A stretch of 64,000 bases of DNA from Acidimicrobiia bacterium. GTDB taxonomy: Bacteria; Actinomycetota; Acidimicrobiia; Spongiisociales; ZC4RG35. Made by a program: the position numbers and the translations under genes. This document shows positions 5,826-58,827 of the stretch, in pieces (position 1 is the first letter of the stretch; each line of letters opens with the position of its first letter). The notes under the pieces were generated by a model, which was not told the DNA's origin, made no database searches, and saw only the letters and a program-made list of their open reading frames with translations. The stretch covers positions 124,001-188,000 of the forward strand of contig JANQOU010000006.1 of the NCBI GenBank assembly GCA_028285585.1. The letters run 5' to 3'.

Positions 5826-5880
5826 TTGCGGCCTCACCGAGCCATGTCGTGATGTACATTCGATCTGTTCCGATAGGTAA

Positions 5881-5923
5881 GACGTTCCACTGAGCAGAAC
5901 GCCCAGCAGAACGCACTGAGCAG
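5881..5923. promoter_or_regulatory. Candidate operator and short direct repeats upstream of the carnitine operon
   Basis: GACGTTCCACT at 5881-5891 is the exact reverse complement of AGTGGAACGTC inside the palindrome at 20996-21011, in front of the IclR gene. Immediately downstream are direct repeats: AGCAGAACGC at 5893-5902 and 5905-5914 (12-base period), and ACTGAGCAG at 5890-5898 and 5915-5923. The block ends 12 bases before the dioxygenase start, whose ribosome site is a strong GGAGGTGAC. Operator function and IclR binding are inference from the shared motif and its position. Confidence 0.5.
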
Positions 5924-8004: not shown

Positions 8005-8016
8005 GCACGTGACTCC

Positions 8017-10634: not shown

Positions 10635-12570
10635 TCCGGGACGTCTCGAGCGCCTGCTCCGGCCCAAGTCGGTTGTGGTGGTGGGCGGAGCAGAGGCGGA
10701 GCGAGTTGTCGAGCAGCTCGACCGTCTCGGATTCGACGGCGACATCTGGCCGGTCAACCCCAACCGGGATGAGATAGGAGGCCGCCGATGCCTCAGATCG
10801 ATCCGTGAGGTGCCTGGTTCTCCAGACGCCGCTTTCGTGGCGGTTCCGGCCGAGCAGACACCGGAAGTCGCCTCGGCTCTTGCAGCGCTGTCGGCGGGGG
10901 CCATCGTCCTTTACTCGTCCGGGTTCGCGGAGTCTGGCGACCAGGATCTCCAGCAGGAGCTGATCGAAGCGGCGGGCGGTGTCCCTGTGATCGGGCCCAA
11001 CACGTACGGGTTCGTCAACGCCCTCGACAAGACCGCGATCTGGCCCGATGTGCACGGGATGAAACCGGTGGAACGAGGCGTCGGCATCATCACTCAAAGC
11101 GGCAACATCGGGATCAACATGACGATGGCCCGACGCGGCCTCGACATCGGGCTCCTGGTGACGGCCGGCAACCTCGCCGACCTCGGCATATCCGACTACA
11201 TGGCTGCGATGATCGAAGACGAGAGGATCACCGCGATCGGAGTCCAGTTGGAGTCACTGTCCAGCCCCGAGGTTTTTGGAGCGGTGGCAATCGAAGCGGC
11301 CAAGAAGGGGATTCCCATTGTGGCCCTGAAGATGGGGACGTCGGCGAGAGGCTCTCTGATCACGTCGTCGCACACCGGGGCCATGGCCGGCGAATCAGAT
11401 GTCTACGACGCCTTCTTCGCCCACTACGGAGTGACTAGCGTCTCAGCGATCCCGGCCTTTCTCGAGACGCTGAAACTGGGAGCCAAGGTCTCACCCAAGT
11501 CCCGGGTGGTCTCCCTGAGCGCATCCGGAGGCGAGGCGGCGCATGTGGCAGACCTGGCAGCCTCCCACGGAGTCGACCTGCCCAAGCTCACAGAGAGTCA
11601 CGCTGCTCAGGTGCGTGACACCGTGCACCACTTGGTCAACGTGAGCAACCCCATGGACTATCACACCCTCTCCTGGGGTGATGGCGCATCCCAAGCCAAG
11701 ACCTTTGGCACTCTGGTCGACGGGCCCTTCGACGTCGCCATGCTCGTGCTCGACTTCCCCGGCGGTGACATCCCCGAGGACTGGTGGACGGCCTGCCAGG
11801 CGTTCGCTACCGCGGCCGCCGGACGACCGGGTCTCGTCGTGGCCACCCTTCCGGAGAACATGCCGGAGGAAGCCCAAACCAGACTGCACGACATGGGCCT
11901 CATCCCGATGCTCGGCCTTGCCGAGACCATGGAGGCCTTGGGCTCGATGAGATCAGGATCATCAGATGACCCCGTGCTCCAGGCTCCTGCACCGACCTCG
12001 GTGACAACGCTCGACGAGCACGCGTCGAAGGCGGTTCTCCAAGCGGCCGGCATCGACATCCCTATTGGTGAAGTGCTCGCCGATCCGACGTCTGGGAACG
12101 TCCCCTACCCGCGGACGGTCAAGGTCCTGGGGCTGGACCACAAAGCGGCCATGGGCGCTGTTGCAGTTGGCCTCGACAACTCCGAGCTCGTCAAGGAGCG
12201 GACCGACACCATGCCCGAAACCGACCGATACTTGGTGGAGGAGACTGTCCAGCACGACTCATCAGAGGTGATGCTGAACTTGCGGGCCACCGACCTCGGC
12301 TGGATGTCGACCATCGCATCGGGCGGCACCAGCGTGGAGCGTCTCGACAAGCGGGAACACCTGATGATCCCGACCACCGCCAAGGCTCTTGGCGAAGCTC
12401 TAGGCCACGTCGGCGTCAACGGCTTCGACCCTGAGCACCTGTTGGATGTGGTCGACAAGATGCTCGAGGCCCGTCAGAAAGATCGGAGAATCATGGAGAT
12501 CGAGATCAACCCGCTGGTGATGGCAAGCGGCAGAGCTGTCGCCCTCGACGCGATGGTGAACGTGTCATGA
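10624..12570 (+). CDS. NDP-forming acyl-CoA ligase (acetate-CoA ligase ADP-forming family)
   Basis: A 648-residue protein with the ACD domain order: CoA-binding Rossmann domain (KSVVVVGG near residue 15), a succinyl-CoA-ligase-like middle with the phosphorylated histidine His250 in SSHTGAMAGES, and a C-terminal ATP-grasp_5 domain. The family reversibly makes acyl-CoA from acid, CoA and ATP, giving ADP and phosphate. Here it probably serves the trimethylammonium acids gamma-butyrobetaine, crotonobetaine or carnitine. No CaiB-type transferase or CaiC-type AMP-forming ligase is present in the operon. The ATG at 10624 overlaps the dehydrogenase by 11 bases, and the 3' end overlaps the hydratase by 4. 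Confidence 0.82.
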   Translation: MAADPGRLERLLRPKSVVVVGGAEAERVVEQLDRLGFDGDIWPVNPNRDEIGGRRCLRSIREVPGSPDAAFVAVPAEQTPEVASALAALSAGAIVLYSSGFAESGDQDLQQELIEAAGGVPVIGPNTYGFVNALDKTAIWPDVHGMKPVERGVGIITQSGNIGINMTMARRGLDIGLLVTAGNLADLGISDYMAAMIEDERITAIGVQLESLSSPEVFGAVAIEAAKKGIPIVALKMGTSARGSLITSSHTGAMAGESDVYDAFFAHYGVTSVSAIPAFLETLKLGAKVSPKSRVVSLSASGGEAAHVADLAASHGVDLPKLTESHAAQVRDTVHHLVNVSNPMDYHTLSWGDGASQAKTFGTLVDGPFDVAMLVLDFPGGDIPEDWWTACQAFATAAAGRPGLVVATLPENMPEEAQTRLHDMGLIPMLGLAETMEALGSMRSGSSDDPVLQAPAPTSVTTLDEHASKAVLQAAGIDIPIGEVLADPTSGNVPYPRTVKVLGLDHKAAMGAVAVGLDNSELVKERTDTMPETDRYLVEETVQHDSSEVMLNLRATDLGWMSTIASGGTSVERLDKREHLMIPTTAKALGEALGHVGVNGFDPEHLLDVVDKMLEARQKDRRIMEIEINPLVMASGRAVALDAMVNVS

Positions 12571-13346
12571 GCGGGATCGACGTGGCCAACAACGGCCCAG
12601 TGCTCGAGATAACCATCGACGTGCCCAAGGCCAACGCGATCAGCGCAGCGACAAGTCGCCGGCTCAGCGAAGTCTTCACCGCCTTTCGGGACGACCCCGA
12701 CGCTCGCGTGGCAATCCTGACCGGGGCCGGCGACCGCTTCTTCTCCGCCGGATGGGACCTCTCAGCCGCGGTCGAAGGTGAGGAGTACGAGGCCGACTAC
12801 GGAGCGGGTGGCTTTGGAGGCTTCCCCGAGCTGCCCGGGCTCAACAAGCCGGTGATCGCGGCCGTAAACGGCATGGCCGTCGGCGGTGGGTTCGAGCTGG
12901 TTCTCGCCGCTGACCTGACGGTGGCCTCCGATCATGCAGAGATGTTCTTCGGTGAGCTTGCCGTGGGCGTGATCCCGGACTCAGGATCGATCCGACTCCC
13001 CCGCCTCATCCCATCGTCGGTCGCCAAAGAGCTGATCCTGACCGGCCGCCGGATGCCGGCCAAGGAGGCCTTGCGCTGGGGGATCGTCAACCGGGTAGTC
13101 CCGGGTGAGCTGCTCATGGACGAGGCCCGATCGGTTGCCGAGAGCATCGCCGCCATGGCGCCACTTGCGGTTGAGGCCACGATCGCGGTGATGAGAGACA
13201 CCGCGCACCTGAGCCTGTCAGACGCCTACGAGGCTCTCCGAAGCGGCGAGATCCTCGAATACAAGACAGTGCTCGATAGTGAGGACGCCAAAGAGGGGCC
13301 GCGAGCCTTCGCCGAGGGCCGCGAGCCCGAGTGGAAAGGGCGCTAG
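12567..13346 (+). CDS. caiD: Crotonobetainyl-CoA hydratase-like crotonase (CaiD-like)
   Basis: A 259-residue crotonase. FFSAGWDLSAAVEGEE near residue 58, the oxyanion loop NGMAVGGGFELVLAAD, TGRRMPAKEALRWGIVNRVV and the ending EGPRAFAEGREPEWKGR closely track E. coli CaiD as I remember it. Glu110 and Glu130 fall where CaiD has its two active-site glutamates. The reaction would be hydration of crotonobetainyl-CoA to carnitinyl-CoA. Last gene of the operon: its ATGA start overlaps the ligase, and its TAG lies within a 4-base CTAG shared with the convergent ABC gene. Confidence 0.85.
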   Translation: MSGIDVANNGPVLEITIDVPKANAISAATSRRLSEVFTAFRDDPDARVAILTGAGDRFFSAGWDLSAAVEGEEYEADYGAGGFGGFPELPGLNKPVIAAVNGMAVGGGFELVLAADLTVASDHAEMFFGELAVGVIPDSGSIRLPRLIPSSVAKELILTGRRMPAKEALRWGIVNRVVPGELLMDEARSVAESIAAMAPLAVEATIAVMRDTAHLSLSDAYEALRSGEILEYKTVLDSEDAKEGPRAFAEGREPEWKGR

Positions 13347-15412
13347 GCCTGCCTCTCAGCTCTGAGCACATCCCGCAGATCCCCCAGATCTTCCGCCTGA
13401 GCAGCAGCAAGCTCATCGGGCGGGATGTGGCACCTGATGGTGTGCCCTGGCCGCACCTCGACGACAGGTGGCTCGAGAACATCACAGGTGCCTTCGATGA
13501 AGCGGTGGCATCGGGTGTGGAACACACAACCCGGTGGCGGGTCCTTGGGGCTGGGGATCTCGCCGGTGAGCGGGATCCGGTTCTCGGCCTCGCCATCAAC
13601 ACTGGGGACTGCCGAGAGCAATGCCTCGGTGTAGGGGTGATTCGGGCCGTCGAACATGGCGTCGGTTGGCGCCAGCTCCATGAGCCTGCCCACGTACATC
13701 ACTGCGATTCGATCTGACAGGTAGCGAACCACACCGATGTCGTGGCTGATGAACAGGTAGCTGGTCCGGACGTCACGTTGCAGCTCGGCGAGCAAGTTCA
13801 AGATCGCAGCCTGGACCGACACGTCGAGGGCCGAGGTCGGCTCGTCCGATACCACCACATCGGGATCCCCGGCGAATGCGCGGGCGATGGCGACGCGCTG
13901 CTTGAGGCCACCTGACAGCTGGCGGGGCCGCATGTCCATGTGACGCTCCGAGAGCTGCATCGCCCGTGCCACTTCGACGGCACGGGAATCGGCTTCGGGG
14001 CCGGTGACACCGGTGAGCTTGGACACGGCGCGAGTGAGGATCCGGCGCACTGTCCAGGACCGGTTGAGTGCAGAGTCGGGATTTTGGAAGACCATCTGAA
14101 TCGAGCGGATCGACTCCTCTATCCGCTGAGTCGCCTTGGTGGCCATGGGACGGCCGCGCAGCGTGATTGCGCCGCCTTCATCCGGCTCGTAGACGCCGAG
14201 CATCGTCTTGGCCAAGGTCGACTTGCCCGAGCCTGACTCGCCGACGAGCCCGAGGGTCTCGCCTTCGGCGAAACCGAGATCCACCGCGACTAGAGCTGGG
14301 ACGTCGCCCGAGCGCTGATGGAAGGTCTTCGACACGCCATGCACCCCGATGACTTCCTCCTCACCGACGAGGTGGTCGGCAGCAATCTCCTCGGGCTCGG
14401 GGATCTCGCCAATGCGGTCTGGGTGATGGCAACGGGTCCAGTGCCAGTCCGAACGATCGACGATGGGGGGCACTTCGGAGCGGCAGAGTTCGGTGACAAC
14501 CGGACATCTGTCCACGTAGACGCAGGTGGGGAGAGAGTCGCCGATCTGGGGCAGGTTCCCTGGAATCGAGAACAGCTCGCGGTCGGTTTTGCGCAAACCG
14601 TGACGTGGAATCGAGTTGAGCAACCCCACGGTGTAGGGATGGCTCGGCCCGTCGAAGACCTCGTCGACAGTGCCTTCCTCGACCATGCGCCCCGCGTACA
14701 TGACACCGACGCGGTCACACATCGTGCGAATGACACCCAGATTGTGGGCGATCAGCAGAATGGCGGCGCCGATCTCGTCACGCAGCTCGCGAACCAGGTC
14801 CAGAACCTCGGCTTCAACGGTCGCATCGAGACCAGTGGTTGGCTCGTCGAGAACCAGCAGGGAGGGATCGGATGCCAGTGCCATGGCGATGACGACACGC
14901 TGGAGCATCCCGCCGGACAGCTGATGCGGGTATCTCTCCATGACACCGACGGGGTCGGCAATATGAACTCGCTCTAGGGCTTTGCGCGCCAGATCGCGAG
15001 CCTCTCCGGACGAATGACCGAGGACTGTGAAGGACTCGGCCACCTGACGGCCGATCTGCAGCACAGGGTTGACCGCCTGGACGGGGTCCTGATAGACCAT
15101 CGATGCGTCATGGGCTCGGAACTCGCGTAGCTCCGAGCCTGACATCGCCGTCAGCTCGCGACCGCTCGCCTCGATCTTGCCACCGGTTATGAGGCCGTTG
15201 CGAGGCAGATAGCGCAACGCGGCGTATGCAGTGGTCGATTTGCCACACCCGCTCTCACCAACCAGGCCGAAGGCCTCTCCGGGCCTGACCTCGAAGGTGA
15301 CACCACGCAGCACCTCGCGTGGCTTTCCTCTAACCACATACGACATATGCAGATCGGTGATGGCCAGGGCCGGTGTCTCGGTTGCCGTCGGCGGGTTCTG
15401 CAATGTGGTCAT
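13343..15412 (-). CDS. Fused peptide-type ABC transporter ATPase (DppD-DppF fusion)
   Basis: A 689-residue protein with two complete ABC ATPase modules of the dipeptide/oligopeptide class. The first has Walker A GESGCGKST at residues 52-60, signature LSGGMLQR and Walker B LLVLDEPTTGLD. The second has GESGSGKST, LSGGLKQR and VVVSDEPTSALD. Each module ends with the OppD/F C-terminal extension (RCPVVTELC and HTRCHRFIEGTC). It powers the two permeases encoded just upstream. The start at 15412 overlaps the permease stop (ATGA). Opp/Dpp systems can also carry non-peptide amines; substrate is discussed under the binding protein. Confidence 0.9.
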   Translation of the reverse strand: MTTLQNPPTATETPALAITDLHMSYVVRGKPREVLRGVTFEVRPGEAFGLVGESGCGKSTTAYAALRYLPRNGLITGGKIEASGRELTAMSGSELREFRAHDASMVYQDPVQAVNPVLQIGRQVAESFTVLGHSSGEARDLARKALERVHIADPVGVMERYPHQLSGGMLQRVVIAMALASDPSLLVLDEPTTGLDATVEAEVLDLVRELRDEIGAAILLIAHNLGVIRTMCDRVGVMYAGRMVEEGTVDEVFDGPSHPYTVGLLNSIPRHGLRKTDRELFSIPGNLPQIGDSLPTCVYVDRCPVVTELCRSEVPPIVDRSDWHWTRCHHPDRIGEIPEPEEIAADHLVGEEEVIGVHGVSKTFHQRSGDVPALVAVDLGFAEGETLGLVGESGSGKSTLAKTMLGVYEPDEGGAITLRGRPMATKATQRIEESIRSIQMVFQNPDSALNRSWTVRRILTRAVSKLTGVTGPEADSRAVEVARAMQLSERHMDMRPRQLSGGLKQRVAIARAFAGDPDVVVSDEPTSALDVSVQAAILNLLAELQRDVRTSYLFISHDIGVVRYLSDRIAVMYVGRLMELAPTDAMFDGPNHPYTEALLSAVPSVDGEAENRIPLTGEIPSPKDPPPGCVFHTRCHRFIEGTCDVLEPPVVEVRPGHTIRCHIPPDELAAAQAEDLGDLRDVLRAERQA

Positions 15413-16347
15413 GACTTGAGCACCTTCTCTATCGAGTCGGCAATGAGGTTGACCCCGATCACGAGGATGCCGATGGCGAGCGCAGGGAACACGGTTGGCC
15501 ACCACACGCTGGCCACGATCTGCTGGTAGTTCTGGGCCACATCCACTCCCCAGTTGGGATCGGTGACGTTGCCGCCGGACAACCCGAGGAAGGCCAGTGT
15601 GGCCAGGGTGAAGATGGCGTAGCCGAGCCTGACGGTGACCTCGACGATCACCACGCCGATGACGTTGGGGAAGATCTCACGGGAGATGATGAACAGGCTT
15701 CTCTCTCCTCGCATTCGGGCGGCAGTGACATAGTCGAGCTGAGCTTCCGCCAGGGTCGCAGCTCGAACCGTCCTTGCGATCGGGGGGATGAAGAGGAAGC
15801 CGATCGTCCCGATGATCACCGGGTTCGTCGCTCCGAAGGTGAAGACGATGACAATCGCAAGGAGGATCGACGGGATCGAGAGGATCGCCTCCAGGAGGCG
15901 GCTGACGATCTCGTCCACCCAGCCACGGAAGTAGCCGGTGATCAGGCCGAGCAACGACCCTATGAAAGCTGCGATGAGCGTTGCCGCCGGGGCCGCGATC
16001 AGAATCGGTCTCGAGCCGTGGACCACTCTCGAGTACACATCTCGTGCGAGACGATCGGTGCCGAACCAGGCAGTGCTGTTGGGCGGGGTCCGCAACAGTG
16101 TTTGCCCGGCGTCGTCGACGACTGTCTCTTTCGGGCCCCAAACCGTGAACAGCTCCGGGAAGACAGCGGTGAGTATCCAGAAGAGGACGATCACCGAGCC
16201 GACGATGAAGCCTGGTGTCCTGAGCAGGAGTGCCCGCTGCTCCCGTCGCACCTGGCGCCGGGTGGCAGCCGCGGCCTGCCTGATCGCCTCGCCGCTCTGC
16301 TCCGGCGAACCGTCAGGTGTGGGGCTCTGGTCGGACTTGGTCGTCAT
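15409..16347 (-). CDS. ABC transporter permease, DppC type
   Basis: A 312-residue membrane permease. A charged, glutamine- and arginine-rich cytoplasmic N terminus of about 45 residues precedes the first membrane segment (GFIVGSVIVLFWIL). Further segments follow, with the coupling-loop region ATLAEAQLDYVTAARMRGERSLFII typical of DppC/OppC. It pairs with the DppB-type permease whose stop overlaps its start by 4 bases, and it overlaps the ATPase gene likewise, so the three transport genes form one coupled unit. Confidence 0.88.
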   Translation of the reverse strand: MTTKSDQSPTPDGSPEQSGEAIRQAAAATRRQVRREQRALLLRTPGFIVGSVIVLFWILTAVFPELFTVWGPKETVVDDAGQTLLRTPPNSTAWFGTDRLARDVYSRVVHGSRPILIAAPAATLIAAFIGSLLGLITGYFRGWVDEIVSRLLEAILSIPSILLAIVIVFTFGATNPVIIGTIGFLFIPPIARTVRAATLAEAQLDYVTAARMRGERSLFIISREIFPNVIGVVIVEVTVRLGYAIFTLATLAFLGLSGGNVTDPNWGVDVAQNYQQIVASVWWPTVFPALAIGILVIGVNLIADSIEKVLKS

Positions 16348-17306
16348 CCTGCCTCACTCAAGCTCAAACGGGCACGTGGGTTCATCCATGCGATCAGCAG
16401 GTCTGCGCCGAGAGTGGCGAACATATAGATGATCGCCACGGTGAGAACTCCGCCGCGCAGCAACGGGTAGTCGGCGGCGTCAACGGCGTCGAAGATGAGA
16501 CGGCCCAGACCCGGATAGTTGTAGATCAGCTCCAGGCCGACCATCCCGCCGAACAGATAGCCGAGCTGGGTGCCGACGACAGCAACGGTGGGGACCAGGG
16601 AGTTGCGCAGCACATGCTTTCTGAATACCTGCCCGGTGGTCAGGCCCCTCATGAACGCGGTGCGAGTGTAGTCGGCGTCCAAAGCGGTAATGGTGCTCGC
16701 CCTGGTGATACGAGCGATGTAGCCGAAGTAGACGGTCAGCACCGTCAGGGCCGGGAGCAGCAGGAACTGCATCTGGGTGAGGATCCCGGCGTCGGGCGGT
16801 GGGTTGGCCAGCACCTTGAAGAAAGAGAAGGGCACGGCCAGCAAGGCCAAGAACAGGACGCCGATGACGAACTCGGGCACCGACGAGAGCGCCACCCCTG
16901 TGTTGACGATGGTCCTGTCGAGCCAGGTGTCACGTTTGTAAGCCGCCAGCAGCCCTCCTGCGATGGCCAAAGGCAGGACAAGCAACAGGGCGTACACAAC
17001 CAGCTTGGTCGAGTTCCACAACGCGGTCAGGACCAGGCTGGTGACCGATGTCCCGGGACGGGTGAACGATTCGCCGAAGTCGAAGCGAAAGACACTGCTG
17101 AAGACATCGACGAGCTGCTCGCCAACGGGCTTGTCCAAGCCCAGCGACTCGGTGACGGCCGCCAGGCGCTCAGGAGAAGCCGTGCCACCCGCGATCTTGC
17201 GCGCCGGATCCCCGGGCGCAACGTTGGGGATCATCGTGATGAGCACGAGGATGATGACGAGCGTCAGCAGCGACAGCAGAAGCCGTCGTCCAACAAACCG
17301 TCTCAC
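16344..17306 (-). CDS. ABC transporter permease, DppB type
   Basis: A 320-residue membrane permease starting MRRFVGRRLLLSLLTLVIIL, the classic DppB N terminus. A periplasmic-side region containing NVAPGDPARK follows, and the coupling loop DADYTRTAFMRGLTTGQVFRKH is in the second half. It forms the import channel with the DppC-type partner. It lies 97 bases downstream of the binding-protein gene; that gap contains a long hairpin (17351-17391). Overlaps the DppC gene by 4 bases. Confidence 0.88.
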   Translation of the reverse strand: MRRFVGRRLLLSLLTLVIILVLITMIPNVAPGDPARKIAGGTASPERLAAVTESLGLDKPVGEQLVDVFSSVFRFDFGESFTRPGTSVTSLVLTALWNSTKLVVYALLLVLPLAIAGGLLAAYKRDTWLDRTIVNTGVALSSVPEFVIGVLFLALLAVPFSFFKVLANPPPDAGILTQMQFLLLPALTVLTVYFGYIARITRASTITALDADYTRTAFMRGLTTGQVFRKHVLRNSLVPTVAVVGTQLGYLFGGMVGLELIYNYPGLGRLIFDAVDAADYPLLRGGVLTVAIIYMFATLGADLLIAWMNPRARLSLSEAG

Positions 17307-17350
17307 TCGCTCACCTCAGACTCGCTCTCTGGAGTGCCTCACGGCTGGTT

Positions 17351-17391
17351 GAGACGGTGTGAGGCCACGACTGGTGACCCCACACTGTCTC
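17351..17391 (-). other. Intercistronic RNA hairpin between binding-protein and permease genes
   Basis: On the transcribed minus strand, GAGAC pairs with GTCTC and GTGTG with CACAC, followed by GG with CC; one A-C mismatch and one G-T pair separate the blocks, and a 13-base loop closes the stem. No U-run follows, so it is not a canonical intrinsic terminator. Such stem-loops after binding-protein genes often stabilise the upstream mRNA or cut read-through into the permeases. That role is inferred. Confidence 0.5.
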
Positions 17392-17403
17392 GATATCTCT
17401 TAC

Positions 17404-19143
17404 TCAGGCGGACTTGCTCGCCTTGTGGAACTGCATGTGCCCGAGTGCAGTGACCTGCACGTTGGACACAGAGCTGTCGTGGCCGCCCAGGTAGTCGAAG
17501 AAGAACGGGTACAACGCAGGAGCGTCCTCGTGGAGGAGCTTCTGGATCGCACCCACCGCTGCCTTCTGACCTGCGACGTCGACCGCCGACTGGTAATCAG
17601 CGAACAGCCCATCGAACTCGGGCGACGCGTAGTTCGAGGAGTTCCAGTCACCATCCGTCTCCAGGGCTCGCCCGAAGAACACGTCTGGAGTGGGCCGGTG
17701 GCCGTAGTCGACGATGCCGATGGCAGCCGATGCGCCGCAGGGGCGACCGGGACCGCCGGTGTCGGGCTGAGCTCCCCAGGATGCGCCTGCACACCAGTAC
17801 TCGCCGTAGAAGTCGGAGTTGGCCGTGACGTTGACCGACAGAGTCACTCCGGCCTCGGCAGCGTTCTGCTCGACGATGGCACCCATGTCAGGGCTGGCCA
17901 GGATCTCACCGACCTCGATGGTGGCGGTGAGGCCCTCATGGCCGGCATCTGCAAGCAGCTGCTTCGCCATGTCAATGTCTCTCGTCCGCTGTGGAGTTGC
18001 ATCCGCGTCGAAGAACGGCAGTGTCGGGTGGACCGGATGGTCGTTGCCGACGATGGCGAAGCCCTGGAAGAGGGTGTCGACCATCTGCTGCCGATCCAGC
18101 ATATAACCGAAGGCCCTCCGGACCCGGGCGTCCGTGAACGGGCCGCCCTCCGGAAGCTGAGTGTTGAACCACAGCTGACGGTGGTTGGACGACGGCGGCT
18201 TCAGCACCGTGAAGTTGTCGTCGTTGAGCAGGCTCGAACCGTCAACCACACCGAACTGCTGGATCATGTCCAGCTCACGGGCTTGCATAGCGGAGACACG
18301 AGCACCGTCAGATCCGAACCCGATGAGGGTGATCTCGTCGAGGTTGGGACGGCCGCCCCAGTAGTTGTCATTGGCCTTGAACACCGTGGTGAACGTGTTG
18401 GGGTCGTGGCTCTCGAAGATGAAAGCTCCGGTGCCTGATGGGCGTGCGTCGAGAGTGGTCCCGTCCGAGTAGTCCGCGGGCGTGATCAACGACTGCGGGT
18501 TGTAGATCGAGATCAGAACCGGCAGGTTCCCGTTGGGCTTGTCGAGGTTGACGACGGCAGTGAGGTCGTCCGGTGTCTCCACCGCGCCCTCGCTGACGAC
18601 ACCGGCGAGGCCGGCGCCGGCCACAACCATGCGATCGACAGTGGCGGCCACGTCGGCAGACGTGAACGGAGTCCCGTCGTGCCACATCACACCTTCGCGA
18701 AGGTTGAACGTCCAGGCACTCCCGTCGGCGTTGGGGGTCCAAGAGGTGGCCAGACCGGTGTTCCCGATGTTGCCGTCGGGAGCGAGGCCCACCAGGTACT
18801 CGAAGCTCTGTGAGAGCACGCTGTAGGTACCCAAGTCGAGCATGTTCAGCGGGTCGAGGCCGGAGTTGGCGTCACCCTGCTGGATGCCGGCCTTGAGGCT
18901 TCCGCCAGCTACCGGAGCCTGGGTCCCGCCAGCACCGCTCGTGCCGGGAGCGGCAGTGCCATCCGTGGGCTCGGGGCTGCAAGCCGCAATAACACCGGCC
19001 ATCGATGTCACGCTGAGCCCAAGGATCGCACCACGCTTCAGGAAGTCGCGTCTGGTGATCGCGCCCTGGGCGTAATGCTCCATCAGGTCAACTTCAAGTG
19101 GTGATGATTTTTTGCGAATTGAGTCGAATAGTTTCCAGTCCAT
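17404..19143 (-). CDS. Substrate-binding lipoprotein of peptide-type ABC transporter (family 5)
   Basis: A 579-residue family 5 solute-binding protein. Residues 29-35 form a twin-arginine motif (TRRDFLKR), followed by a hydrophobic stretch and a lipobox ending at IAAC, so it is probably a Tat-exported lipoprotein. SWTPNADGSAWTFNLREGVMWHDG is the signature of DppA/OppA proteins, split across residues near 150. The ATG at 19143 has GGAGG upstream. It follows the choline-dehydrogenase-like gene by 146 bases on the same strand and precedes the permeases. A quaternary amine such as choline or carnitine is the likely ligand from context, but peptides remain possible. Confidence 0.85.
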   Translation of the reverse strand: MDWKLFDSIRKKSSPLEVDLMEHYAQGAITRRDFLKRGAILGLSVTSMAGVIAACSPEPTDGTAAPGTSGAGGTQAPVAGGSLKAGIQQGDANSGLDPLNMLDLGTYSVLSQSFEYLVGLAPDGNIGNTGLATSWTPNADGSAWTFNLREGVMWHDGTPFTSADVAATVDRMVVAGAGLAGVVSEGAVETPDDLTAVVNLDKPNGNLPVLISIYNPQSLITPADYSDGTTLDARPSGTGAFIFESHDPNTFTTVFKANDNYWGGRPNLDEITLIGFGSDGARVSAMQARELDMIQQFGVVDGSSLLNDDNFTVLKPPSSNHRQLWFNTQLPEGGPFTDARVRRAFGYMLDRQQMVDTLFQGFAIVGNDHPVHPTLPFFDADATPQRTRDIDMAKQLLADAGHEGLTATIEVGEILASPDMGAIVEQNAAEAGVTLSVNVTANSDFYGEYWCAGASWGAQPDTGGPGRPCGASAAIGIVDYGHRPTPDVFFGRALETDGDWNSSNYASPEFDGLFADYQSAVDVAGQKAAVGAIQKLLHEDAPALYPFFFDYLGGHDSSVSNVQVTALGHMQFHKASKSA

Positions 19144-19289
19144 GGTCTTGGTTCCTCCAAGCCGACTACGGCAGCCGTGGGCTACCTGGTCAGCAAACAT
19201 AGCGCGCCGGGCCTTCAGCAAACCGGGGAATCGCCAGCTTTCTAAGGTTCCCACCAGGCGGAACACGTCTCAGAAGCTATAAAGCGCGG

Positions 19290-20930
19290 TCAGTCGGCGT
19301 GTCGGTGCCAATCGACGTGCTCGGGTGGAAGCGGGGTGTTCCCGAGTATCAGATCGGCCGCCTTCTCCGCGATCATCATCACCGGTGCGTAGATGTTGCC
19401 GTTGGTGATGGCGGGCATCACCGACGCATCGACCACCCGAAGCCCTTCGGTCCCGTGGACCGACATCGTCGCCGGATCGACCACCGACATCTCGTCCAGG
19501 CCCATCCGCGCAGTGCATGACGGGTGGAGGGCCGTCTCCCCGTCGCGTGCGACCCAGTCGAGTATCTCCTGCTCGGTGCCCACCTCTGGCCCGGGTGAGA
19601 TCTCACCGGCGTTGTACGGCTCGAAGGCCGGCTGGTTGAGGATCCGTCTCGCTACTTGAACTGCCTCGACCCACTCCCGACGGTCTGTCTCGGTGGACAA
19701 GTAGTTGAACCGGAGTGCCGGCTTGTCCTCGGGGTCCCGCGATTTGATCTTCACCGATCCGACGGCGTCGGAGAACATCGGGCCGATGTGCACCTGGTAG
19801 CCGTGGCCACCTGCCGGGACCGAGCCGTCGTATCGGATGGCCAATGGAAGGAAGTGGAACATCAGGTTGGGCCGGTCGACATCGTCGTTGGAGCGGACGA
19901 ACCCTCCGGCCTCAAAGTGGTTGGTAGCCCCGGGGCCTTTTCCGAACAGCCACTGCAACCCGATGATCGGCCGTCTCCACATGGCCAGATGGGGCTGCAT
20001 CGAAACCGGCTGCTTCGAGGCGTACTGGATGTAGACCTCGAGGTGGTCCTGCATGTTCTCGCCGACGCCAGCCAGGTCTACCACTGGCTCGATCCCCAGG
20101 GCGGACAGCTCTGAGGCGTTGCCGACACCGGAGAGCTGGAGCAACTGCGGAGTGTTGATCGCCCCGCCACAGACGATCACTTCGCCGGCCGCGACGAACC
20201 GCGACTTGCCCCGCACCCGGTATTCGACGCCTTCGGCTCGGGTCCCGCGAAACCTGACGCCAGTGGTCATGGCCCGGGTCACCACGTCGAGGTTTGGGCG
20301 ACGGCGCACCGGGTGCAGATAGGCCCGTGCCGCCGAGAGCCGGCGGCCTTTGTGACGATTGGTGTCGAAAGCGGCGAAGCCTTCCTGTTGTCGGCCGTTC
20401 ACGTCGTCGGTCAGCGGGTAGCCGGCCTGCTGAGCTGCTTCGAAGAAGGCGTTGAACAGCGGGTTTGTGGCGGGCCCGCGGGTCAGCTTCAAAGGGCCTT
20501 CGCCGCCGCGGTACTCGTCGGCGCCGGCGAGCGTCGTCTCCATCTTCTTGAAGTAGGGAAGACAGTGGGCGAAGTCCCAACTCTCGAGACCGGGCCGCTC
20601 GGCCCACCGCTCGTAGTCGCCGGGATTGCCCCGTTGGAAGATCATGCCGTTGATCGACGAGGAGCCACCGAGGACCTTCCCCCGAGCGTGATAGATCCGC
20701 CGGCCTCCCATGTGCGGCTCAGGTTCCGACTCGTACATCCAGTCGTATCGCTTGTTCCCGATCGGGAAGGCCAGCGCCGCCGGCATGTGGATGTACACGT
20801 CCCACCAGGAGTCGGGGCGGCCGGCTTCGAGCACGAGGACGCTGGTCCCCGGGTCGGCACTGAGCCGGTTTGCGAGGGCGCTACCGGCCGAGCCGCCGCC
20901 CACGATCACGAAGTCGTATCGATCCCGCAC
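19290..20930 (-). CDS. betA: GMC oxidoreductase, choline dehydrogenase-like
   Basis: A 546-residue FAD enzyme of the glucose-methanol-choline family. The N-terminal FAD motif [14 protein letters not shown] is at residues 10-23, [15 protein letters not shown] is the first GMC signature and [16 protein letters not shown] the second. The C-terminal [25 protein letters not shown] and the catalytic-region TNGNIYAP resemble BetA. Choline dehydrogenases oxidise choline to betaine aldehyde and often on to glycine betaine. No betaine aldehyde dehydrogenase is in the window. Other alcohols are possible within GMC, but nearby carnitine genes and the shared IclR motif favour choline. Confidence 0.78.
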
Positions 20931-20995
20931 GACGATTCAACTTATTCGCTGCAAATGGCGTGCCGCTGCCCCAAGCCGAGGTTTGTGTTCTGACC

Positions 20996-21011
20996 AGTGG
21001 AACGTCCCACT
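20996..21011. promoter_or_regulatory. Candidate IclR operator palindrome
   Basis: AGTGGAACGTCCCACT is a near-perfect 16-base palindrome: the half AGTGG mirrors CCACT, with one mismatched pair. It lies in the 100-base gap between the divergent choline-dehydrogenase and IclR genes, 19 bases before the IclR start. Eleven bases of it (AGTGGAACGTC) recur in reverse orientation at 5881-5891 in front of the carnitine operon. IclR regulators commonly bind such sites and control both divergent genes. Binding itself is inferred. Confidence 0.6.
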
Positions 21012-21030
21012 CAGTAGGATCGCGATTCAC

Positions 21031-21783
21031 GTGCAGTCGATAGAGAGAGCTTTTGCGGTCCTTCGGGCAGTCCGCTCGATTGACGGCACTGCCGGTGTGT
21101 CCGAAGTCGCCCGAGCGGTGGGCCTGGCCAAGAGCACCACTTCGAGAGTGCTCTCCTCCTTGGAAGAAGTCGGCGCGGTCGACCGGGTGGAACCCGGAGG
21201 CGGGTATGTGATCGGCACCGGCCTCATCTCACTGGCGGGGGCCGGCGCCGGGATCAGCACACTGCGCGAAGTGGCCCGGCCGTTCCTTCGGGAGCTGACC
21301 GACACCCTGGGTGAGAGCACCGGCCTGACCGTGGCCGACGACCAGGAGGCCCTCTACGTGGATCACGTCGGGAGCGAAGGGTCGGTGAGAACCAGGGATT
21401 GGACTGGTGCCCGCTTCCCGTTCCACACCGTCGCCGGCGGGCTGGCGCTGCTCATGACTTGGCCTGACTCGTCGGTTGATCAGCTCGCCGACCGGGGCAT
21501 GGAGGCCTTCTCCACTGCGACTGTCTCCTCCAAGAAGGCGCTACGGAGCAAGCTGACCCAGGCCCGCCGCGCCGGATACGTCTGGGCCATGGGCGACTTC
21601 GACCTTGAGATCAACGGAGTGGCAGCACCGGTCCGCAACGCCGACGGCAAGGCAATCGGTGCCGTCTCGGTCTACGGGCCCAGCTACCGATTCCCCGGAG
21701 ACGGCGACCCCGAGGAGATCGGGGAGACGGTCCTCGCGTCAGCCCTTCTCGTCCAGGAGCAGTTAGGCCGGTCTAGGCGCTGA
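21031..21783 (+). CDS. IclR-family transcriptional regulator
   Basis: A 250-residue regulator. The N-terminal winged helix-turn-helix reads AFAVLRAVRSIDG followed by SEVARAVGLAKSTTSRVLSSLEEVG. The effector-binding domain includes LREVARPFLRELTDTLGEST and the ending APVRNADGKAIGAVSVYGPSYR. I use the GTG at 21031, where the family sequence begins. It is divergent from the choline dehydrogenase gene and is probably the local regulator of that gene and the carnitine operon. The effector is unknown, plausibly a quaternary amine. The last 11 bases overlap a convergent lipoprotein gene. Confidence 0.88.
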   Translation: MQSIERAFAVLRAVRSIDGTAGVSEVARAVGLAKSTTSRVLSSLEEVGAVDRVEPGGGYVIGTGLISLAGAGAGISTLREVARPFLRELTDTLGESTGLTVADDQEALYVDHVGSEGSVRTRDWTGARFPFHTVAGGLALLMTWPDSSVDQLADRGMEAFSTATVSSKKALRSKLTQARRAGYVWAMGDFDLEINGVAAPVRNADGKAIGAVSVYGPSYRFPGDGDPEEIGETVLASALLVQEQLGRSRR

Positions 21784-22996: not shown

Positions 22997-23413
22997 TCAG
23001 GGGACGAGGACAGGTTGAGCAGTTGCGCTGGCACGCACCCGCAGAGGATCGCTTTGATCGACAAAAACGCCGAGCAGCCCCAACTCGACGGCGCCTTCGA
23101 TGACGACAGTGACGGAGAGACCGTCAGGGCTTGTCACCACCTCGTACGAAGTTGTGTTGACTCCTTGAAACCCGATTGAGGCTAGAGCCAGGGATCGAGC
23201 TCGATCTGGGCTTAAAACAAGCTCTCCGCTGGCTCGATACACCTCCTCGTCTATGCCCGATGCTGCTGCAATCGCCGCTGAGTCGGCCACGGCCGCAAGC
23301 TCGCGTTGGGTAGCAAGACCGCGCCAGAAGTCGAGAGCAAGCCCTCCGAAGAGCAGAAGCAAGAGACTCAATCCCAGCATCCAGAAGGTCGCAGATCCAC
23401 GCTCGCTCCTCAT
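22997..23413 (-). CDS. TadG-like pilus assembly protein (Rv3654c-like)
   Basis: A 138-residue protein starting RSERGSATFWMLGLSLLLLLFGGLALDFW in pieces: a charged start, Gly, then one membrane helix. RELAAVADSAAIAAASGID is the segment typical of TadG-type and helicase/secretion-neighbourhood proteins of actinobacteria (Rv3654c type). It is the last gene of the pilus operon and overlaps the preceding pseudopilin by 4 bases (ATGA). Probably a membrane-anchored minor component of the pilus machine. Confidence 0.75.
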   Translation of the reverse strand: MRSERGSATFWMLGLSLLLLLFGGLALDFWRGLATQRELAAVADSAAIAAASGIDEEVYRASGELVLSPDRARSLALASIGFQGVNTTSYEVVTSPDGLSVTVVIEGAVELGLLGVFVDQSDPLRVRASATAQPVLVP

Positions 23414-23838
23414 GGGAGACTCCGGTACAAGTCGACTGGCTCCGAGTGCTCCGCTCCCACCCAGAGACCTCCCACCTCACCCCAAGGAGTGGACACCAAA
23501 GGAGCCCAAACCTCCACGCGAGAGGTCGCCACGGAGCCTCTGGTCAAGACACACCCATGACTCGCAGCAGAAACAGGAGAGGGAGTGGTCCCGCACCAAC
23601 CGAGCCGGACTTCATCGTCGCCCAGACCGTGCTCTCTTGCGAGCGACTCCAACAGTTCGCCAGCAGCCCTCTCGTTCAGGCTCAGGACAGCAGCCCTGCT
23701 CACCTCCGCCGCTGCCGCTTCGGCGAACACCCGCCGCTCGGACCATGGCCCGAATGACGCCACGACGAGGGCAACAGGAAGAAGCAAAACCGCTACTCCC
23801 ATGGCGAACTCGGCCGCAGCGTGCCCATGCTCCCTCAT
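23410..23838 (-). CDS. TadE-like pseudopilin
   Basis: A 142-residue protein starting MREHGHAAAEFAMGVAVLLLP. A Gly is followed by a helix with Glu at position 5 after the presumed prepilin cleavage point, as in TadE pseudopilins. Two cysteines (WCGTTP and HGCVLT) could form a disulfide outside the membrane. I take the ATG at 23838, whose ATGA overlaps the stop of the preceding gene; the 3' end overlaps the TadG-like gene the same way. Confidence 0.75.
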   Translation of the reverse strand: MREHGHAAAEFAMGVAVLLLPVALVVASFGPWSERRVFAEAAAAEVSRAAVLSLNERAAGELLESLAREHGLGDDEVRLGWCGTTPSPVSAASHGCVLTRGSVATSRVEVWAPLVSTPWGEVGGLWVGAEHSEPVDLYRSLP

Positions 23839-24194
23839 GGCTCGACGACAGCGCGTGCCGACATCTCGATCGGGACATCGGCCATGAACGGGCTCCACGA
23901 CTCGAAGGTGACAGATGCGTTCGCAACCATGGAGCCACCAGCGACCGCACAGGTCACAACGAGATCATCCGACATGCGGCCACCCAACAGCTGGCCCGCG
24001 ACGTCAACACCCTTGTCAACACACATCTCCACCGATCCGGTGAGAGCACCCGACCTAGTCCCCTGCTCCAACGCAGAGCGGAGCGCGCCTCGTCCGTATT
24101 GGATGGCAACGATATTGATGAACGCCACAAAGAGAACCAACGCCAGCCCCGACGCGAGAAGGAACTGGACCGAACTGATCCCTTTGTCTTTCAA
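23835..24194 (-). CDS. TadE-like pseudopilin, probable TTG start
   Basis: A 119-residue protein if started at the TTG at 24194, which forms a TTGA overlap with the stop of the Flp gene and matches the 4-base coupling used throughout this operon. An ATG nine codons upstream (24221) would overlap Flp by 31 bases and is less likely. The sequence KDKGISSVQFLLASGLALVL has the pseudopilin helix, with Gln instead of Glu at position 5. Two cysteines lie in the C-terminal part (EMCVDKG, VVTCAVAG). Confidence 0.72.
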   Translation of the reverse strand: MKDKGISSVQFLLASGLALVLFVAFINIVAIQYGRGALRSALEQGTRSGALTGSVEMCVDKGVDVAGQLLGGRMSDDLVVTCAVAGGSMVANASVTFESWSPFMADVPIEMSARAVVEP

Positions 24195-24373
24195 CCGCCG
24201 ATCAGGGAGCTGCGGATCCAACCGACTATGTCGACTCCGAGCGCCTGGAGCGCACCCCAGATCACAACCAGCGCTGCAATCGCCAGTGCTGCATTGCCCA
24301 TCAGCTCAGCAGTGTTCAGTCCCCGGTCGTCGGTGCGCAGTGCCTTTGCGAGTGCGCGAATTGTCTCCAGCAT
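24191..24373 (-). CDS. flp: Flp-type pilin
   Basis: A 60-residue protein: a short charged leader ending DDRG, then LNTAELMGNAALAIAALVVI, the hydrophobic pilin helix with Glu at position 5 after the cleavage glycine. The size and layout match Flp/Fap major pilins of Tad systems. It ends in WIRSSLIGG and overlaps the next pseudopilin gene by TTGA. It lies 10 bases after tadC, as is common in Tad operons. Confidence 0.85.
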   Translation of the reverse strand: MLETIRALAKALRTDDRGLNTAELMGNAALAIAALVVIWGALQALGVDIVGWIRSSLIGG

Positions 24374-24383
24374 TTCTCTCCTT

Positions 24384-25313
24384 TCATTGCCAGGCAGTTA
24401 TCAGATAGGGAAGGGGGGCGGCCACAAAGAGAATGAGCACAGGGGCCAAGATGGCAATGGTCGGAACCAACATCGCCGCCCTTCTCTTGGTGGCCGTTCG
24501 CTTGATCGATTCGCGGCGAGTCTCTCTGACATCCTCAGATAGGGCGAGAAGTGACGTGGCGAGATCCGCCCCACGCTCCTCCGCAGTGGCCAACAGTCGG
24601 TAAGTACGAGAGCAAAACGGCTCAGGCGTGATCTCCGCTATGCGGCGAAAGGCGTCCGGGCCCGACCACCCGGCACGATGCAACCTAAGGGCATCGGCGA
24701 GCTCGGTGATCACCTCACCGCTTCCTCTTTGGACCATGGCGCGAACGGCCTGAACGACGCCACCCCCTGCTCTAACCCGCATGGCCAAGAGCTGGTTGAC
24801 CGTGTAGATCTCGATCTTCATCCGCTCGCGTCTCTGCTCAATGGCCTTGTTGAGCTGACCTTTGGTACGACTCGCCCCAAACGTCAGGCCGAGAATCAGC
24901 AAAGCAACCCGCATTGGCACCGAGGCCCCAACCGCATAGCCAGCACCCAAAGCCAGGACCGTTGACACGACAATCGAGCTCAGCTGCTTGACCCGATATG
25001 CCGACATGAGCTCTTGCTCAGGCGTCCCTAGGAACCAACCAGCCTGTCGAATCTTCAACACCGTCACCTCGTCACCGCCACGCTCCATCAGCCGCCCAAG
25101 CCAATCGGCGAGATCACGAACGATGGGGCCAAAGACCATCGCGACCGGGTTGCTCGACTCAGAGGTGGAGGGACTCGCCAGGGACGGGGTCAGATACGGC
25201 TGAAGCCGGGACCGAAGACGTCTTGGTGGTGGAGCTATGAGTTTCACCACAAGCCCAATCAGCACGGCAGAAGAGGCCGACGCCAGAATCGCAAGACCTC
25301 CGATGCCACTCAT
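24384..25313 (-). CDS. tadC: Tad pilus inner-membrane protein TadC
   Basis: A 309-residue type II secretion F-domain protein with two hydrophobic N-terminal helices, a cytoplasmic T2SSF domain (residues about 165-290, RVRAGGGVVQAVRAMVQRG through TAEERGADLATSLLAL) and a C-terminal membrane pair. It forms the pilus platform with TadB, driven by the TadA ATPase. Its ATG overlaps the tadB stop by 4 bases. Confidence 0.88.
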   Translation of the reverse strand: MSGIGGLAILASASSAVLIGLVVKLIAPPPRRLRSRLQPYLTPSLASPSTSESSNPVAMVFGPIVRDLADWLGRLMERGGDEVTVLKIRQAGWFLGTPEQELMSAYRVKQLSSIVVSTVLALGAGYAVGASVPMRVALLILGLTFGASRTKGQLNKAIEQRRERMKIEIYTVNQLLAMRVRAGGGVVQAVRAMVQRGSGEVITELADALRLHRAGWSGPDAFRRIAEITPEPFCSRTYRLLATAEERGADLATSLLALSEDVRETRRESIKRTATKRRAAMLVPTIAILAPVLILFVAAPLPYLITAWQ

Positions 25314-26155
25314 GGTCCGCCGCCGAGCACTCGCGGCTCCGGTGCCTGTCCTGACATTTTGGATGCGATGGCAATGCCGATGAGGCTAAGCAGCCCGCCA
25401 ATAGCAACAACAAAGACACCAGCAGGGGTGGAGTAGAACTCGCGAAAGGCCCCGTTGCGAGCGGTCATGGCTATCAAGACGAGCCAAGGCAATACGAACA
25501 CGACTCGCGAGTTGATCTTCTGCTCGAGGGCTTCGGTTCGAATCTGCTCCATCGTCCACAAGTCTCTTGTGGTCGCGGCAGCCAGATCCTCGAGAATCTC
25601 CGGGACCACCCGTCCGCCCCGGTCATGGGCGAGAACCAAAACCTCGATCACACGGTCTGACGTGGGATCGGCCAAGTCATCGCGAATCAGCTCGAGAGCG
25701 GGACCTACCCCCAACGACCTCGCGTAGATGCCAAACCCCTGGAAAGCCTCCCGAAGCGGAGCCGGCCCAAAGGTGGCCAGATGCTCCAGCGCTGAGGGGA
25801 GCGACGATCCTGACCGGACCGAGGCCAAGAGGTCTCGGAGCCCGTCAGGCCACGCCTCCTGGACAGCCGCCAGCCTCCTCGCCCTCTTCCGGGCGAAGTA
25901 GGTCTTGGGCAGGCTCGCCACGACGATTGCCGGCACCAACGACACAGCACTCAATCCGGTGACCGCCCAGACGACTGCAAAGGTCACGATCCCAGCGCCG
26001 AGAACGGTCAGCCAGAATTGGAGCGGCCGCACATCCAGGCCGTGAACCACTCCCCGAGTTGGTGAGTCCCGCGCAACTGATCGTCGCGCTTTCATCAGGC
26101 GGTGGCCGATCATCCCCACTGCCATAGCCGAGCAGGAGGCAGCCACGAAGGTCAC
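25310..26155 (-). CDS. tadB: Tad pilus inner-membrane protein TadB
   Basis: A 281-residue T2SSF-domain membrane protein. The membrane helices FWLTVLGAGIVTFAVVW and SLVPAIVVASLP precede a cytoplasmic domain with SVRSGSSLPSALEHLATFG and VLAHDRGGRVVPEILEDLA. The start is set at GTG 26155 because its GTGA overlaps the tadA stop, and a longer reading would run into tadA. It partners TadC in the pilus platform. Confidence 0.85.
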   Translation of the reverse strand: MTFVAASCSAMAVGMIGHRLMKARRSVARDSPTRGVVHGLDVRPLQFWLTVLGAGIVTFAVVWAVTGLSAVSLVPAIVVASLPKTYFARKRARRLAAVQEAWPDGLRDLLASVRSGSSLPSALEHLATFGPAPLREAFQGFGIYARSLGVGPALELIRDDLADPTSDRVIEVLVLAHDRGGRVVPEILEDLAAATTRDLWTMEQIRTEALEQKINSRVVFVLPWLVLIAMTARNGAFREFYSTPAGVFVVAIGGLLSLIGIAIASKMSGQAPEPRVLGGGP

Positions 26156-27426
26156 CACTCGATCCTCCCCTCTGACATCAGGTCGGAGATGGTGTGACCC
26201 GCCGGCAGCACTGCCTCCAGCCGTCGACTGAGGTCGTCCGGAGGCAGGGCACCTGTCCACTTCAAGGGAGCACCTAGCTGTTCGCGGGCGAAGAGGGGCT
26301 CTGTCGAGAAATCGTCGTGCAGCGACGGCACCATGGCCCGGATCTCCATGGTCTCACGCTTGATGGAAGTCCCAGAGTCCGACTGGCCGCGCTCGAGGTG
26401 GACAACAAGATCTACCGACGAGGCAAACACTTTCTGAACCACGCGCTCCGGCACGTTCTCACCCGCCATCAGCGCCGCGTTGACCAGAGCGTTTAGAGCA
26501 TCGCTTGCGGAGTTGGCGTGAATCGTGCACGCCATGCCACAACCGGCGTTGGCAGCCCTGGTCAACTCAAAAGCCTCCGCGCCGCGAACTTCCCCGACAA
26601 CGATGAGATCGGGACGCATCGCAAGGGTCACCTTGACGAGGTCTCTCAAGTTGATCTCACCGGTGCCATCCAGAGCCGCGGCGCGCGCCTCGTAGTAGGA
26701 CCCATGAACCAGCGGGACATGAAGCTCGCGCACCTCCTCGCAAGCCCGCACACAATGCGACGACGGCACAGCCGAGATGAGCGCGGAGAGAAAGGAGGTC
26801 TTGCCCGCTCCCGGAGAGCCCGAAACGACAATCGAGGCCGAGGATTTCATCGCAGCCTCGAGGAAAGAGGCGGCAGACCAGGTCAAAGAGCCCAAACCGA
26901 CGAGCGAGTCCATTGTTTGGCGACGCAAGGCGTAGCGCCGAATCGTGGCTGAAAGGTGGTCGCCGACAGGTGGGATCACTGCCGTCAAGCGGGCGGTCCC
27001 ATTGAGTATCCGAGCCTGAACTATCGGATTTGAGGCATCAAGGCGACGATCGGTCGCCGCTATCAGCTGGTCTATGGTCGTCCGGCTCTCGGCTTCCGTG
27101 GTGGGAACGGGAGAAGCTCGTAGCGACCCTCCTGCCTCGAGATAGGTGACCTGATCACCCTCGACGAACACTTCCTCGATGTCATCACGCTCGAGGAGCT
27201 GTGCGAGGGGCCCACGCCCGGTAAGAGAATGGAGAAGGCGGTCGAGAGTGCTTCCCGGATCGACCAATGAACGCCCCACCCCGAGATGCGCTCGGCTCTG
27301 GTATTCGTCGACAGTGGTCTCCACCAACTCTTTGACTGCTTCGACATCAACCTCGGGGTCGATGCCTTTGCCATCTATTCGCTCCAAAGCCTCCCTGCGG
27401 AGCGACTCATAGACGTCAGACTTCAC
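26152..27426 (-). CDS. tadA: Tad pilus secretion ATPase TadA/CpaF
   Basis: A 424-residue hexameric secretion ATPase of the VirB11/CpaF class. Walker A is GSPGAGKTS, Walker B is LIVVGEVRGAEAFEL, and the histidine box TIHANSASDALNALV follows. The N-terminal domain has GPLAQLLERDDIEEVFVEG, typical of CpaF. The start is GTG 27426 with GAGGAG eight bases upstream; it overlaps the preceding gene by 11 bases. It energises pilin assembly through TadB and TadC. Confidence 0.92.
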   Translation of the reverse strand: MKSDVYESLRREALERIDGKGIDPEVDVEAVKELVETTVDEYQSRAHLGVGRSLVDPGSTLDRLLHSLTGRGPLAQLLERDDIEEVFVEGDQVTYLEAGGSLRASPVPTTEAESRTTIDQLIAATDRRLDASNPIVQARILNGTARLTAVIPPVGDHLSATIRRYALRRQTMDSLVGLGSLTWSAASFLEAAMKSSASIVVSGSPGAGKTSFLSALISAVPSSHCVRACEEVRELHVPLVHGSYYEARAAALDGTGEINLRDLVKVTLAMRPDLIVVGEVRGAEAFELTRAANAGCGMACTIHANSASDALNALVNAALMAGENVPERVVQKVFASSVDLVVHLERGQSDSGTSIKRETMEIRAMVPSLHDDFSTEPLFAREQLGAPLKWTGALPPDDLSRRLEAVLPAGHTISDLMSEGRIEW

Positions 27427-28507
27427 GGAGCGACTCCTCAATAACGCCGGCAACACGCCGCACATCCTTGGCAAACGCACCCCGTCTACTCACCTCGCCA
27501 TCCCAGGCCAGGTCACGAATCTGACGGTCTTCACGAAGCGCCACCACGGGCAGCTGAGGAAATGCCTTGCGCAGCTCCTCTCTGACTTCGGCGTCAAAAT
27601 ACGGGCGTCCAGACGACCGATTGACCGCGAGCAGGATCCGATCGGGCTCAACCGTGTCCTGCACTGACCCCGCAGCTCTCACCAACCGCGCTATTCCAAC
27701 AGGGTCCGAGACGCCCACCAGGATGAGCGATGCGAACTCTCGAAGTGATCCGGGGATCATCGAGAGATAGGCCCCCAAGTCGGCGACGACGTATCCGGAG
27801 TTGGCTTGAAACGAGTCCAAGATCACGGATAGGTCCTGACGAGAGAGCGATGGCACCTCGGCTGACGCCGCCACGCCGGCGACAACTGATAGAGACGAGG
27901 CTGCGGACGGCGCAGCTACATCGCCATGCAGGGCAGCGTCGAGGACCGTGCGTACGTTGGGATGCAGTGGCAAGTCGAGTCTCTGAGCGATGCTGGGAGA
28001 TGAGGTGTCGGCATCGACGAGAACGGCCGACGACGACTCGGCAAGCTGGGTTGCGAGCTGAACGGCAAGCTCGGTTGATCCCACTCCCTGTGCACTTCCA
28101 AGGACGCCGATCGTCAGAGCGCGATGGGTGGACAACTCTGGGGCAGCTTCGACTGGCCTGTGTGCCAGGGTCGCCAAGGCCTTTTCGATGAACTCGACCG
28201 CTGACGCATCCGACTCAATGACGTCACTGATGCCGCATTCGAGCAGTCGTCTTTTTGCATGTGACCCGTCCGTCGGCTCGAACACACCCACAACACCGAG
28301 ACCTCGTCGCTTCACGTCAGCTACCAGCCGTGGCGTGAGGAATGAGCAGATATCATCGATGTACAGAACGTCGAACTGCTCCCCGGTTGCCTGATCGGAG
28401 CCCATGATCCTGGTGACAACCCGGCCACCACCGTGATCGAGCAGATGTCGATGCACTCGGTCAGGCCACTCTCGCGCCGATGCCGCAAGCGCTATGTCAG
28501 GACCCAT
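27416..28507 (-). CDS. TadZ/CpaE-like MinD-family protein with degenerate Walker A
   Basis: A 363-residue protein. Residues 1-120 form a receiver-like domain (FDVLYIDDICSFL, LLECGISDVIESDASAVEFIEKAL), followed by a MinD/ParA-type ATPase domain. The nucleotide loop reads GSAQGVGSTELAV: the conserved Lys of GVGKT is Ser, and the signature Lys of KGG is also absent. TadZ proteins localise the Tad machine to the cell pole or septum, and some are known to have atypical Walker A motifs. The start at 28507 overlaps the CpaB gene by 11 bases. Confidence 0.8.
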   Translation of the reverse strand: MGPDIALAASAREWPDRVHRHLLDHGGGRVVTRIMGSDQATGEQFDVLYIDDICSFLTPRLVADVKRRGLGVVGVFEPTDGSHAKRRLLECGISDVIESDASAVEFIEKALATLAHRPVEAAPELSTHRALTIGVLGSAQGVGSTELAVQLATQLAESSSAVLVDADTSSPSIAQRLDLPLHPNVRTVLDAALHGDVAAPSAASSLSVVAGVAASAEVPSLSRQDLSVILDSFQANSGYVVADLGAYLSMIPGSLREFASLILVGVSDPVGIARLVRAAGSVQDTVEPDRILLAVNRSSGRPYFDAEVREELRKAFPQLPVVALREDRQIRDLAWDGEVSRRGAFAKDVRRVAGVIEESLREV

Positions 28508-29177
28508 CACTGCCTGCCTCAATCGCCGGCGCACCGGTTGAGCGCACCAGCTCTAGGGACCCATCTGCCATAACGGCAGCAATGCTCAACGCCTGCTCGG
28601 CATCGACCGCAACGACGACGTGATACTGGCCTATCGAGCCTATGCCACCGGTGGTCTCAGCAGTGGACAGGACTCCGATGTCGGTAGCGACGAACCTGGC
28701 CACGCCGTCATCGACCGCAATGACATCGATCCGGTCACCGGCGCGCAAAGTGCCACCTGCCGCATGGTCGACCGTGACAGGAATACTCATCGAACGCAGA
28801 CCTGACGGCGCTCCCGGCTCCAAAACGGAGGATCGCTCGACGATGTCGCCGGCGCTCATGTTCCTGTCAGCTATCCAGCCTTCGACCTCCGAGGCCTGCG
28901 ATTGCTCCAGTAACGAGCCCAATCCTTCGAAGTCGGCAGGGATAGGGACGAAACGCAGATCAGAAAGAGAAACCGGCGTGCCCGCCGCAATGGCCTTGTC
29001 AGCGACAGCGACCATGGTGGTGGCGGTCCTGTCACGCAACGCCAGAAGATTGAACGCAAACGCCATGAGCACAGCCAGAACGATCAGGAGATGTGACAGA
29101 GTCGGTCTCCAACGCGCAGCCCGCAGTGTCGCTATAGAGGGGCCCGCTTCCCTCACCCTTGTTGAGGGTTGAGTCAC
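28497..29177 (-). CDS. cpaB: CpaB/RcpC-like SAF-domain pilus protein
   Basis: A 226-residue protein. One membrane helix (LLIVLAVLMAFAFNLLAL) precedes a SAF domain (TTMVAVADKAIAAGTPVS, LSDLRFVPIP, AGDIVERSSV) and the RcpC-type region SIPVTVDHAAGGTLRAGDRIDVIAV. Such proteins sit outside the membrane and support Tad pilus assembly. GTG start; first gene of the Tad operon, diverging from the gene at 29210 across 32 bases. Confidence 0.85.
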   Translation of the reverse strand: MTQPSTRVREAGPSIATLRAARWRPTLSHLLIVLAVLMAFAFNLLALRDRTATTMVAVADKAIAAGTPVSLSDLRFVPIPADFEGLGSLLEQSQASEVEGWIADRNMSAGDIVERSSVLEPGAPSGLRSMSIPVTVDHAAGGTLRAGDRIDVIAVDDGVARFVATDIGVLSTAETTGGIGSIGQYHVVVAVDAEQALSIAAVMADGSLELVRSTGAPAIEAGSDGS

Positions 29178-58826: not shown

Positions 58827-58827
58827 C

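Follow-up and report, generated by a model that had tools for sequence, protein, structure and literature searches.

What is the palindromic element between the divergently oriented genes for choline dehydrogenase (betA) and an IclR-family regulator, and does it tie these genes to a carnitine operon about 15 kb away? The first-pass annotation had placed the motif AGTGGAACGTCCCACT between the two genes, and it is indeed found there, at positions 20996–21011 of the window (the whole stretch of 64,000 nucleotides that was analysed), 19 nucleotides ahead of the IclR start codon (GTG at 21031) and 65 nucleotides from the betA start (GTG at 20930, minus strand). The annotation also held that an 11-nucleotide part of the motif recurs in reverse orientation at 5881–5891, upstream of a gene resembling gamma-butyrobetaine dioxygenase (BBOX). 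This is correct, and understates the likeness. The exact shared word is the 12-mer CAGTGGAACGTC (20995–21006 and 5881–5892), and in a wider register 20 of 24 bases are identical between 20987–21010 on the plus strand and 5900–5877 on the minus strand, with 18 of 20 identical over GACGTTCCACTGNNCAGAAC.

Judged from sequence comparison, the motif is probably the core of an IclR-family operator through which the betA-linked IclR protein would control its own gene as well as betA with its ABC transporter genes and the carnitine operon headed by the BBOX-like gene. The assignment of the motif to an IclR operator is well supported. Both this assignment and the single regulon that had been proposed draw on phylogenetic footprinting, a weight matrix from other genomes, genome-wide uniqueness of the sites, and the IclR-type control that orthologues of the carnitine operon show in related genomes. 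The two units comprise the following features.

5867–5900, minus strand: operator 2, GTTCTGC-TCA-GTGGAAC abutting GTCTTAC-CTA-TCGGAAC; it ends 35 nucleotides before the BBOX-like gene start.
5936–7063, plus strand: BBOX-like gene of the gamma-butyrobetaine dioxygenase family (PF02668, PF06155), first of the carnitine operon.
7072–13346, plus strand: rest of the carnitine operon (BKACE, carnitine dehydrogenase-thioesterase, acyl-CoA dehydrogenase, CoA ligase, crotonobetainyl-CoA hydratase-like).
13343–19266, minus strand: Opp/Dpp-type ABC transporter (binding protein, two permeases, fused ATPase), downstream of betA.
19290–20930, minus strand: betA, choline dehydrogenase (TIGR01810, 826 bits against a cut-off of 732).
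20987–21020, plus strand: operator 1, GTTCTGA-CCA-GTGGAAC abutting GTCCCAC-TCA-GTAGGAT; IclR boxes in two 17-bp pairs with no gap between them (7-3-7-7-3-7).
21015–21020, plus strand: possible -10 element of the IclR gene, TAGGAT, from the alignment; overlapped by the last box of operator 1.
21031–21783, plus strand: IclR-family regulator, 250 amino acids, GTG start (PF09339, PF01614; placed by tree).

The regulator matches both domains of its family above the cut-off (PF09339, HTH_IclR, 49.5 bits; PF01614, IclR_C, 105 bits) and thus belongs to the IclR family. A start at the upstream ATG of the mechanical open reading frame (20710) was ruled out, as homology begins at 21031. The BBOX-like gene scores 327 bits against TIGR02409, under the cut-off of 415. 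By established biochemistry, glycine betaine is reached from choline (BetA) and also from gamma-butyrobetaine or carnitine (BBOX, carnitine dehydrogenase, BKACE), so shared control of the two routes makes sense.

Other genes of the region were also recorded. A Tad/Flp-pilus-like cluster adjoins the IclR unit (22997–29177, minus strand), and tryptophan 2,3-dioxygenase-like and kynureninase-like genes are adjacent at 58657–61046. In the part of the contig that precedes the window (C4:85001–124000), translations indicate further FAD/GcvT-type, trimethylamine-methyltransferase-like and folate-type genes. This contig also carries a second IclR gene, the paralogue C4:94640, and the window therefore appears to be part of a larger methylated-amine island.

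The 16-mer AGTGGAACGTCCCACT forms the core of the 34-bp box array of operator 1. It had been described as a shared IclR operator; the IclR assignment stands on sequence grounds, but the 16-bp palindrome marks where two 17-bp sites meet end to end and is not a canonical dimer site. Scored as arrays of four boxes, both sites reach 21 of 28, the best value in a 122-kb stretch in which the next best is 18; 0.2 are expected per genome. Operator 2 lies in a 110-bp gap ahead of the BBOX-led operon, and a tandem repeat of AGCAGAACGC with a 12-bp period is found between it and the BBOX start (5893–5915).

The boxes recur with the regulator in other genomes. We found nine orthologues of the betA-linked IclR protein (45–61% identity) within the family, the order or the class of the source genome, and they form one clade in the tree (support 100/98); the named relatives, with up to 32% identity, were too distant to use. 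The orthologous genes are divergent from FAD oxidoreductases that resemble dimethylglycine and sarcosine dehydrogenases, and the one such neighbor scanned (in G044) has an FAD oxidoreductase region joined to a GcvT-like region, as in these enzymes. All nine are preceded by a footprint, GTTCCAY-N3-GTGGAAC-GTTCC, that aligns without gaps and in one register, as in the following examples.

Family f39: GTTCCAT-TGA-GTGGAAC-GTTCC
G015: GTTCCGA-ACG-ATGGAAC-GTTTC
G057: GTTCCAA-CCA-GTGAAAT-GTTGC
G391: GTTTCAC-TGA-ATGGAAC-GTTTC

The fourth box is weak in some orthologues. When relatives were scanned with their own operator, a strong site was found at their own IclR gene. In the DMGDH-linked orthologues this strong site was the only one seen, so that a distal second site is probably not conserved, with G391 as a possible exception; this counts against control of two operons by one regulator.

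Orthologues of the carnitine operon are present in G015, G057, G358, G391 and other genomes, and the five genes behind BBOX occur as a conserved set in G015 and G057. A separate IclR gene is divergent from the operon in three of these genomes, with IclR boxes in between.

G015: GTCCCAC-TAT-ACAGAAC-GTTCCGA-GAT-ACGGAAT
G057: GTTCCAC-AAT-ACGGAAT
G358: GTTCCAC-ATG-CTGGAAC

IclR-type control of the carnitine operon is therefore probably recurrent in relatives. In G391 no IclR gene turned up close to the operon, and the site with the highest score within 20 kb precedes carnitine dehydrogenase; no such site was seen at the carnitine operon of G278 or G313.

The source genome has no IclR gene adjoining its carnitine operon, and at 97% completeness a carnitine-specific IclR could be absent from the assembly. 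Operator 1 might belong to the betA-linked IclR while another paralogue, either C4:94640, C13:196683 or one missing from the assembly, occupies the BBOX site. The dedicated regulators of relatives point this way, as does the use of similar boxes by IclR paralogues in these genomes, including GTTCCACGATGTGGCAC upstream of C4:94640. However, we consider this arrangement unlikely. Of the operators compared, that of betA–IclR is the closest to the BBOX site, which shares only 12–13 of 24 bases with the carnitine-linked operators of relatives. In the tree, the carnitine-adjacent IclR proteins of G015, G057 and G358 fall outside the betA/DMGDH-linked clade, and neither of the other two IclR genes detected in the source genome (C4:94640 and C13:196683) groups with the carnitine-linked proteins.

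A slightly less probable alternative is that the BBOX site is a chance match and that the betA/iclR intergenic site alone is real. An 11-base match at two upstream sites had been called unlikely by chance, an argument that is weak by itself since repeated 11-mers form 3,594 pairs in the window; the conclusion holds on wider evidence. The left half of the 16-mer is also degenerate at the BBOX site. A weight matrix derived exclusively from sites in other genomes, applied to both strands of 122 kb, ranks the betA/iclR site first and the BBOX site second. The latter scores 15.7 compared with 28–36 for the orthologues' own sites, which again counts against the two-operon reading. Chance alone would give a score this high about seven times per genome, so the position of the site within the short gap before a functionally linked operon matters.

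Other searches set the BBOX site apart more clearly, genome-wide statistics being based on pattern searches and the 122-kb stretch. A genome-wide motif scan, which the first-pass annotation had proposed as a check, finds the 12-mer only twice in the 2.59-Mb genome, at the two window sites. With a consensus written without the BBOX site and searched over the whole genome, the betA/iclR site has no mismatches, the BBOX site has one and all other matches have three, one of these being operator 1 itself on the opposite strand. The 16-mer occurs at 21 places in the whole genome with up to three mismatches, and those examined beyond the two window sites are intragenic, as by chance. The pattern GACGTTCCACTGRKCAGAAC, which was derived from the two sites themselves, is seen twice with up to three mismatches compared with 0.03 expected from shuffled windows. 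Finally, the agreement in 20 of 24 positions includes non-consensus letters common to both sites, for which a rough simulation gives about 0.0005 for a generic IclR site.

It is very improbable that the CG-centred palindrome is a LacI-family operator instead: two perfect TGGAACGTTCCA palindromes, 24 bp apart, do precede an oxidoreductase operon of sugar or inositol type in G015 (L114, G015:C203:7022–7061) and presumably form a LacI-type site, but the footprint tracks the IclR orthologues, the outer GTTCCAY box is present at 3-nucleotide spacing, and the published IclR consensus fits.

Under the preferred reading of one IclR regulator for both operons, the operator would consist of three to four GTTCCAC-type boxes in a 34-bp array, which two adjacent IclR dimers probably occupy. 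The betA-linked IclR would bind the betA/iclR intergenic copy to control itself and the divergent betA–ABC unit, and the second copy to control the BBOX-led operon. Because the last box of operator 1 overlaps the probable iclR -10 element, autorepression is likely; TAGGAT or TAGAAT is aligned at the same place in G015, G044 and G057. For the two catabolic operons, repression that is lifted by a quaternary amine or its CoA product is more likely than activation. A sigma-70 promoter scan gave no clear promoter at either site, and a terminator scan found nothing. More tentatively, and with the balance somewhat against it, the choline/betaine IclR may in this lineage have taken over, by means of a new operator, a BBOX-headed carnitine operon that lacks the divergent IclR gene present in relatives, merging two regulons under an unusually tight four-box array with 17-bp spacing.

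Published IclR motifs include GKTYCRYW3-4RYGRAMC and TGRAACAN1-2TGTTYCA (Suvorova and Gelfand 2021, PMC8222616). The orthologues match group 1 of that work (GTT-11-AAC; GTTYCRY-N3-RYGRAAC, 17 bp), as in GTTCCAT-TGA-GTGGAAC, and both window sites keep its GTT-11-AAC with a degenerate left box. In contrast, the TGRAAC and GTTYCA boxes of group 2 are 3–4 nucleotides apart, whereas the spacing is 0 nucleotides at both sites and in the orthologues. Tandem sites described for a tetramer have centres 18–22 nucleotides apart, compared with 17 here. Three-box sites are reported in 32 groups, and like these the window sites have a third box in alternating direction and lie near a gene start; however, no gap separates their third box from the second. 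PMC8222616 makes no mention of choline, carnitine or betaine, and our literature search found no report of an IclR regulator for carnitine or betaine genes. We propose a specific operator and regulon for an uncharacterised clade of IclR regulators whose genes adjoin those of betaine, sarcosine and choline catabolism in Acidimicrobiia.

The same kinds of enzymes occur side by side in an Arctic SAR11 island (CHDH, CDH, BBOX, BKACE and an ABC transporter; PMC12421898), although in another host, in another gene order and with no IclR mentioned. In Pseudomonas aeruginosa, CdhR and GbdR likewise regulate the interlinked catabolism of carnitine and glycine betaine (PMC5806209). However, these are two regulators of the AraC family, whereas a single IclR protein is suggested here for the use of both choline and carnitine.
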